Positions 54,751-56,465 of a DNA stretch of 64,000 nucleotides are shown piece after piece. The position numbers and the translations under genes are program-made. Under the pieces are notes generated by a model. It was not told the origin of the DNA and ran no database searches. It saw only the letters and a list, made by a program, of their open reading frames with translations. Position 1 is the stretch's first letter. Each line of letters begins with the position of its first letter. The stretch comes from Methanolobus bombayensis (GTDB lineage: Archaea; Halobacteriota; Methanosarcinia; Methanosarcinales; Methanosarcinaceae), in NCBI RefSeq assembly GCF_017873415.1, contig NZ_JAGGKD010000001.1, positions 186,001-250,000 of the forward strand, read 5' to 3'.

Positions 54751-54773
54751 GAAAACAAGTGGGAATTGTTTTC
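54751..54773 (-). terminator. Hairpin at the end of the FilR1-type regulator gene
   Basis: GAAAACAA (54751-54758) and TTGTTTTC (54766-54773) pair perfectly over eight bases with a seven-base loop. The stem includes two bases of the regulator stop codon (54772-54774). Read leftwards, the stem itself ends in a run of T, so it can act as a terminator. Confidence 0.55.
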
Positions 54774-55563
54774 AGGTCCTTTGCAGCAGTTCTGACTGCT
54801 TGAGATAATACTGAAAAAGTTTTTCACCCCAGGCGATTGCCTCTTTGTTGTATGATAATAGGTATCTTGGGTCGTAGAGTTTATCTTCTCTTAAAAGCTT
54901 TAAAAGCAAACAGTCCTCTACAAATGAAATGGTAGACAATCCGGGATCTTCAGGGTATATGTAGAAATTAAGATGAGGCGTTTTCAAAAGTTTATCAAAC
55001 ATCTGTTTGTCTTCAGCAATGAACTTATCAAGGACATCTTGAGTCATAATGAAATGAAATTCGATATTGTTCTGAGCATAGTGGTTGTATATTTCAAAAT
55101 AGTCAGAATGATATAGTGAAGCTAAAGCACATACTTTTTTGGATTTGAAAGCAAAATCGATTGCTTCTTTACTCAGTTCCATGGATTCGGATAATTCAGG
55201 CTCGATTAGTTTGCATTCTTTCAGTTCACGCAGCCTGCTAAATAATTGCGGTGGTATGCAATCAGTGTAATGATTTATCCAGTATTCCATTTTATCTTCA
55301 AGGACTTCAAGAGTTCCAAGTAATGGAGTCAGATCACTGACTATTAGCTTTCCGAATTTTGTAAGCATGTAGCCATCATTATGTTTATCTTTTTCAACCA
55401 GATGACCTTCTTCCAGAATTTTCATTTGAGGGAGAAGTGCATTTCTGCTAACATCCAGTGTTTGCAAAATCGTGGACATACTCAGTGGTCCGTCCTGCAG
55501 GAGTAATAAAACATCCTTTCGTTTTTCAGACCTGCTAATAGTTTCAATCAGTGCTTGTCTCAT
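54772..55563 (-). CDS. Winged-helix regulator with C-terminal FilR1 domain
   Basis: This 263-residue transcription regulator is of the type expanded in Methanosarcinales. The N-terminal winged helix is RKDVLLLLQDGPLSMSTILQ, then SRNALLPQMKILEEGHLVEK and GYMLTKFGKLIVSDL. The C-terminal FilR1/DUF1724 domain ends YDPRYLLSYNKEAIAWGEKL and carries FHFIMTQDVLDKFIAEDKQM. Members of this group regulate methanogenic or chemotaxis-related genes, and the FilR1 domain is named after the filament regulator in Methanosaeta. The target cannot be inferred from position: it stands alone, upstream of the C/D RNA and hsp20 region. Confidence 0.82.
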   Translation of the reverse strand: MRQALIETISRSEKRKDVLLLLQDGPLSMSTILQTLDVSRNALLPQMKILEEGHLVEKDKHNDGYMLTKFGKLIVSDLTPLLGTLEVLEDKMEYWINHYTDCIPPQLFSRLRELKECKLIEPELSESMELSKEAIDFAFKSKKVCALASLYHSDYFEIYNHYAQNNIEFHFIMTQDVLDKFIAEDKQMFDKLLKTPHLNFYIYPEDPGLSTISFVEDCLLLKLLREDKLYDPRYLLSYNKEAIAWGEKLFQYYLKQSELLQRT

Positions 55564-55839
55564 TGATTCTCATTCTCTTTTGTGATGACTATGTTCAGGA
55601 TAAAACTCTTTTAACTGCGTATTTATTTATAGATGAAACTGTGACACAATCATTTTCACTTAATCTTGAGCCCAACCGCCCATTTAAAACCTTTTTTAAA
55701 TTCTGATTGGAAATATATAAACATACTGATTTTGTTGTATATGATGAAGTAGTATTGATTATCATTTGCTGATTTAATATGATATAATTATTGTTTTTAT
55801 TCAGAGAAAAGTAATATACTATATTTGCGTTGTACTTTT
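55564..55839. other. Gap between the regulator and the C/D sRNA gene
   Basis: No open reading frame of interest. It holds an inverted repeat ATTTAAAA-cctt-TTTTAAAT at 55682-55701, an AT-rich tract, and TATA-like AAATATATAAAC near 55711-55722 that could serve a plus-strand transcript. A single C-box-like ATGATGA near 55741 has no matching second box or stem. Confidence 0.4.
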
Positions 55840-55905
55840 TTGCGGTGATGATGATAGTTACCCCGACTGAGCAAAGGATGATGATATCTTTAACTGATGC
55901 CGCAA
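55840..55905 (+). ncRNA. C/D box sRNA, probable 23S rRNA helix 69 2'-O-methylation guide
   Basis: All four boxes are present in order: C box GTGATGA (55845-55851), D' CTGA (55867-55870), C' ATGATGA (55878-55884), D CTGA (55894-55897). TTGCGG (55840-55845) closes with CCGCAA (55900-55905). The D' guide between C and D' contains GATAGTTACCCCGA, complementary to UCGGGGUAACUAUC. The word GGGGUAACUAU is what I remember of archaeal 23S rRNA helix 69. By the D'+5 rule the target is the G equivalent to Escherichia coli position 1909. The D guide is TATCTTTAA; its target is unknown. Upstream GTAATATA (55811-55818) is a possible TATA box. This is a strong sequence-level call; the target needs the organism's rRNA. 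Confidence 0.85.
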
Positions 55906-55976: not shown

Positions 55977-56465
55977 TTATTCTATCATTATCCTGTGCTT
56001 CTCTTCTATCTCTGCCTTTGGCATTGTGATTGTAAGCACACCATTCTCAAGCTTTGCACTTGCTTCATCTTCATTTACCATTGATGGAAGATTAAATGCT
56101 CTTGCAAATCTGCTGTATGTTCTTTCACGCATAAGGTAGCCTTCTTTTTCCTCTTCTGACTCCTTGTGTGTGTTAGCTTTTATCCATACCCTGTTGTTCT
56201 TTATGTCTATGTCAACATCTTCTTTGCTGACGCCGGGAAGGTCTGTTGTAACCACAATATTGTTGTCATTCTCTTTGATGTCCACCAGAGGGGAAAGGGT
56301 ATCAATATCCATCATTTCAGCACTCTGTTCTCTCTCTCCGAATAAGCGGTTCAGGCGCTCATGCATTTGCCTCATGTCGTCAAATGGATCCCATCTCGAG
56401 GCCGAAGATGGTGACCATGGAGTTAGTCCAAATTTCACTTTTACCACTCTCTTTATTTCATTCAT
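55977..56465 (-). CDS. Small heat shock protein Hsp20
   Basis: This 162-residue ATP-independent chaperone has an alpha-crystallin domain from about residue 55 (LSPLVDIKENDNNIVVTTDL, then PGVSKEDVDIDIKNNRVWIK and GVLTITMPK near the end) and an N-terminal region rich in arginine (MRQMHERLNRLFGEREQSAE) that drives assembly. The C-terminal IxI-like end is KHRIMIE. The start MNEIKRVVKVKFGL is an ATG with a weak ribosome binding site. Its promoter region has two palindromes (see 56478-56517), and a hairpin terminator follows the gene. Confidence 0.92.
   Translation of the reverse strand: MNEIKRVVKVKFGLTPWSPSSASRWDPFDDMRQMHERLNRLFGEREQSAEMMDIDTLSPLVDIKENDNNIVVTTDLPGVSKEDVDIDIKNNRVWIKANTHKESEEEKEGYLMRERTYSRFARAFNLPSMVNEDEASAKLENGVLTITMPKAEIEEKHRIMIE

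Follow-up and report, generated by a model that had tools for sequence, protein, structure and literature searches.

We report that positions 55840-55905 (+) of a 64,000-nucleotide stretch of Methanolobus bombayensis DNA (the window, as the whole analysed stretch is called below) very probably represent a self-standing C/D box sRNA gene, whose product would direct 2'-O-methylation of 23S rRNA to the helix 69 base that corresponds to E. coli 1909. Conservation of the guide is strong in Methanosarcinaceae, and copies were also recovered from Methanomicrobiales, haloarchaea and Methanococcales; none was detected in the sister families of the order. The gene, missed by Rfam thresholds, joins a family of guides for a base that lies where the ribosomal subunits meet.

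Structure and genomic setting of the sRNA gene

The locus reads TTGCGGTG-ATGATGA-TAGTTACCCCGA-CTGA-GCAAAGG-ATGATGA-TATCTTTAA-CTGA-TGCCGCAA, i.e. a closing stem enclosing box C, a 12-nt guide and boxes D', C' and D in this order. Its parts are as follows:

55812..55826, +: probable promoter element, A+T-rich and TATA-like (TAATATACTATATTT), about 14-28 bases 5' of the closing stem
55840..55847, +: 5' arm of the closing stem, TTGCGGTG; seen in the sequence, with compensatory changes across relatives
55848..55854, +: box C, ATGATGA; TGATGA is invariant in alignment A1
55855..55866, +: D' guide, TAGTTACCCCGA, 12 nt; complementary to GGGGUAACUA of 23S helix 69 at positions 3-12 (counted from D')
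55867..55870, +: box D', CTGA (sequence and alignment)
55871..55877, +: D'-C' linker (k-loop), GCAAAGG; G(C/T)AAA is conserved across Methanosarcinaceae
55878..55884, +: box C', ATGATGA (sequence and alignment)
55885..55893, +: D spacer, TATCTTTAA, 9 nt; differs from species to species and probably has no conserved target
55894..55897, +: box D, CTGA (sequence and alignment)
55898..55905, +: 3' arm of the closing stem, TGCCGCAA; seen in the sequence, with compensatory changes

The boxes agree with those of archaeal C/D box sRNAs (RUGAUGA for C, CUGA for D', a RUGAUGA-like C' and CUGA for D), the length falls within 50-70 nt, and a guide of about 12 nt lies 5' of D'; the distance between C and D' is 12 nt in 112 of 115 sequences. 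The terminal stem shuts the C/D k-turn. An initial annotation of the window had recognized the four boxes in their order and spacing, which is borne out here; the six-base closing stem it described (TTGCGG/CCGCAA) is present as well, but extends to 8 pairs with two G-U pairs included. A normal-length guide between C' and D, usual in these RNAs though not obligatory, was not found, the spacer having 9 nt and lacking conservation. Single-guide C/D box sRNAs are known.

When the whole 64-kb window was scanned for the four-box pattern, 55840-55905 was the sole locus, matched in two overlapping registers, one of which has the 8-pair stem. At the gathering threshold, no Rfam family (snoPyro_CD, sR1, snoR38 and others) reaches its score at this locus. 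Below the threshold, the families spanning the locus are mostly of the C/D-box kind, among the best archaeal matches being snoPyro_CD (RF00095; 23.8 bits, gathering score 45) and sR1 (RF01152; 20.2 bits, gathering score 45, E=0.002). The comparison with covariance models of C/D RNAs, a check the initial annotation had suggested, thus favours the expected class of RNA, although every match stays below its gathering score.

The gene lies between genes for a FilR1-like regulator (54772-55563, -) and for Hsp20 (55977-56465, -), the latter being retained on the opposite strand, 3' of the sRNA, in most of Methanosarcinaceae. A terminator of hsp20 on the opposite strand had been proposed too, and it is indeed there: a minus-strand stem (55964-55945) followed by TTATTTTTTA ends the hsp20 transcript ahead of the sRNA locus. 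On the upstream side, an A+T-rich element (ATAAATAATACTATCTATATA in most genera) is kept at a constant distance from the sRNA across Methanosarcinaceae, so that the sRNA gene probably has its own promoter. The host genome also encodes protein components of a methylating RNP, with genes for fibrillarin (1.2e-85) and Nop (1.5e-56; Nop5) adjoining each other.

Conservation among archaea

A BLAST search with a 75-nt query recovered the element from all 26 Methanolobus congeners (E down to 4.7e-29) and from nearly all other Methanosarcinaceae, G032 being missed. We then ran a covariance model, R1, built from 37 diverse sequences, on a 120-genome sample of the host's order. It detected the element in 46 of 46 Methanosarcinaceae genomes, G032 included, and gave a single match in the host genome (2.8e-20; the next one 0.08). 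The boxes, whose loss from related genomes would have spoken against the initial annotation, are therefore kept in all congeners and all sampled members of the family.

Within Methanosarcinaceae, conservation extends to the closing stem, the core of the D' guide and the D'-C' linker, whereas the D guide is not kept. Both the guide core AGTTACCC and the linker G(C/T)AAA are present in 36 of 36 loci obtained by BLAST, and the adjoining D spacer varies freely: 49 Methanosarcinaceae-type sequences contain 35 distinct spacers of 9-11 nt.

Outside the family, scanning the genome collection with a DNA pattern brought up this RNA in Methanomicrobiales, haloarchaea and Methanococcales. Because TGATGA, AGTTACCCC and CYGA were prescribed, sequences found this way have a constant guide core by construction. 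The pattern made no demand on the closing stem, C' or D, and yet they are present in the archaeal sequences recovered. Bacterial matches to the pattern (L097, L110, L116, L118, L124 and L137) have no C'/D half and were discarded as chance occurrences. Across archaea, the closing stem shows two-sided changes in four of its six pairs; its covariation score is 0.323 (0.158 for shuffled and at most 0.100 for slid alignments), and 16 cells are altered on both sides, compared with 3.1 after shuffling.

In Methanomicrobiales orthologues (L079, L088, L141 and others), the D spacer is conserved as GCAGGGG, which can form 7 Watson-Crick pairs, plus possible G-U pairing, with CCCUGCU in Methanolobus 16S rRNA. 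Given this conservation and complementarity, the Methanomicrobiales orthologue may be a double guide.

R1 detected no copy of the guide in the remaining families of the order (f2-f5; genomes G037-G128). Their helix 69 carries the same target stretch as in Methanosarcinaceae, and the absence would reflect either loss of the RNA or another guide in its place. Weak R1 matches in f3 and f5 turned out to be other C/D sRNAs with different guides. Those of L220, L222 and L223 (genomes G049, G053 and G038 of f3) have in common a D guide, AACCCTATGAGAC, beside CTGA, while their D' guides differ.

Target of the D' guide

Neither the Rfam model nor a helix 69 pattern matched a 23S gene in the host assembly (G000), which is 99.98% complete by markers and consists of 35 contigs. 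Probably, the rRNA repeats were collapsed out of these contigs. Since the host's own 23S sequence is missing, the target was checked in the 23S rRNA of relatives, where helix 69 reads GCGGGGGUAACUAUGACCCUC without exception in Methanosarcinaceae and the target stretch GCGGGGGUAACUAU is invariant.

Positions 3-12 of the D' guide, numbered from D', form an unbroken run of 10 Watson-Crick pairs with helix 69 of congeners, and positions 1 and 2 are mismatched. The 13-14 pairs implied by the initial annotation presupposed UCGGGGUAACUAU; because helix 69 of the relatives has GCGGGGGUAACUAUGACC instead, with the target stretch given above, only 10 are formed. By the N+5 rule, which is established for C/D guides, the D' guide points to the G that corresponds to E. 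coli 1909, and in congener 23S rRNA this base indeed stands opposite the fifth guide base from D'.

One may ask whether a genuine C/D box sRNA could have its main target elsewhere, at a different place in rRNA or in a tRNA or mRNA. Position 2 of the guide is G in M. bombayensis and unpaired with helix 69, there are weaker alternative sites in 16S and 23S, and once G-U pairs are admitted, many shuffled guides (95 of 300) reach a run of 10. Such runs being common, the match taken by itself is of moderate strength, and it is conservation that carries the argument for the target. Here the evidence turns towards helix 69: it is the best Watson-Crick site for the guide in 16S and 23S together (longest run 10, equalled by 54 of 5000 shuffled guides), and outside Methanosarcinaceae all 65 archaeal sequences, with one bacterial chance match left out, have C at position 2, giving a perfect 10-pair duplex with helix 69 over positions 2-11. 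Moreover, the methyl group at 1909 is known experimentally in Haloarcula (PMC2584109). With the guide compared against 16S and 23S rRNA, we consider a main target other than helix 69 improbable; conservation, the relatives' rRNA and earlier literature all support the target base originally proposed.

It is more improbable still that the RNA is a double guide whose D side pairs with 23S rRNA at AAAGAUAUCA, 346 nt after the helix 69 anchor. It is true that TGATATCTTT has 10 nt of complementarity to this conserved 23S hairpin, but three of the ten bases lie in box C', and the free part, TATCTTTAA, matches over 7 nt only, which 2053 of 5000 shuffles equal. The 9-nt spacer also differs among congeners, whereas the 23S site is constant, and we rejected this D-guide target for its reliance on box C' bases and its lack of preservation in congeners. 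As to the sequence words themselves, TGATGA and CTGA are short and the gene-free gap is A+T-rich, so one could imagine that they assembled by accident. None of 200 simulated first-order Markov windows contained the four-box pattern, however, and family-wide conservation together with compensatory changes in the stem refutes such an origin, leaving it a negligible probability.

Discussion

According to our reading of the locus as a helix 69 guide, the transcript would fold into a k-turn (C/D), which the 8-pair stem shuts, and a k-loop (C'/D'), and the folded RNA would bind L7Ae, Nop5 and fibrillarin. The D' guide would then pair with 5'-GGGGUAACUA-3' of 23S helix 69, and fibrillarin would 2'-O-methylate the G that faces the fifth guide base upstream of D' and corresponds to E. 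coli 1909. For the D spacer, a conserved target is unlikely. The predicted Gm at this position is testable in genetically tractable Methanosarcina.

The guide may have been reshaped in Methanosarcinaceae, where position 2 is mostly unpaired (41 of 49 sequences have G or A there) and G(C/T)AAA is fixed in the linker, and where the D guide would have been abandoned. A conceivable, though rather unlikely, explanation is that the linker has gained a role, or that methylation at 1909 is partial or conditional. Were it true, the linker might serve protein contact, stability or a second target; inspection by eye revealed no further pairing of the linker with rRNA beside helix 69.

Yeast snR63 is likewise a C/D guide acting on helix 69, but the base differs. 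The initial annotation was mistaken in equating its Am2256 with position 1909: in a published table, E. coli 1909 corresponds to yeast A2252 and 1915 to Psi2258 (PMC2584109), which places Am2256 at E. coli 1913. Among archaeal RNAs represented in Rfam, snoPyro_CD (RF00095) and sR1 (RF01152) resemble the Methanolobus sRNA in box order, spacing and k-turn layout, and their guides are unlike its own. The Pyrococcus orphan C/D box sRNA sR41 has been suggested for the same base, 1909 (PMC2584109); the likeness lies in that suggested target, and no sR41 model was among the Rfam matches at the locus.

Dennis et al. 2015 (PMC4644070) describe helix 69 of archaea as a hotspot of methylation. In Haloarcula marismortui, Gm1950 of helix 69, a 2'-O-methylated G equivalent to E. 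coli 1909, was assigned to fibrillarin and an sRNA, and a C/D box guide candidate with homologues in 25 archaeal genomes was predicted for it (Grosjean et al. 2008, PMC2584109). The Methanolobus sRNA shares with that candidate both the predicted target base and the kind of guide. As base and guide had already been described, the Methanolobus gene is a correctly identified member of a predicted family, ordinary and of low novelty; its contribution is an unannotated Methanolobus copy, and current understanding is unchanged by it. The haloarchaeal sequences we recovered have the same layout, with the guide AGTTACCCCC beside D'. Differences concern the linker, C' and the D spacer, as well as guide position 2, where the M. 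bombayensis RNA has G instead of C and has thereby lost one pair.
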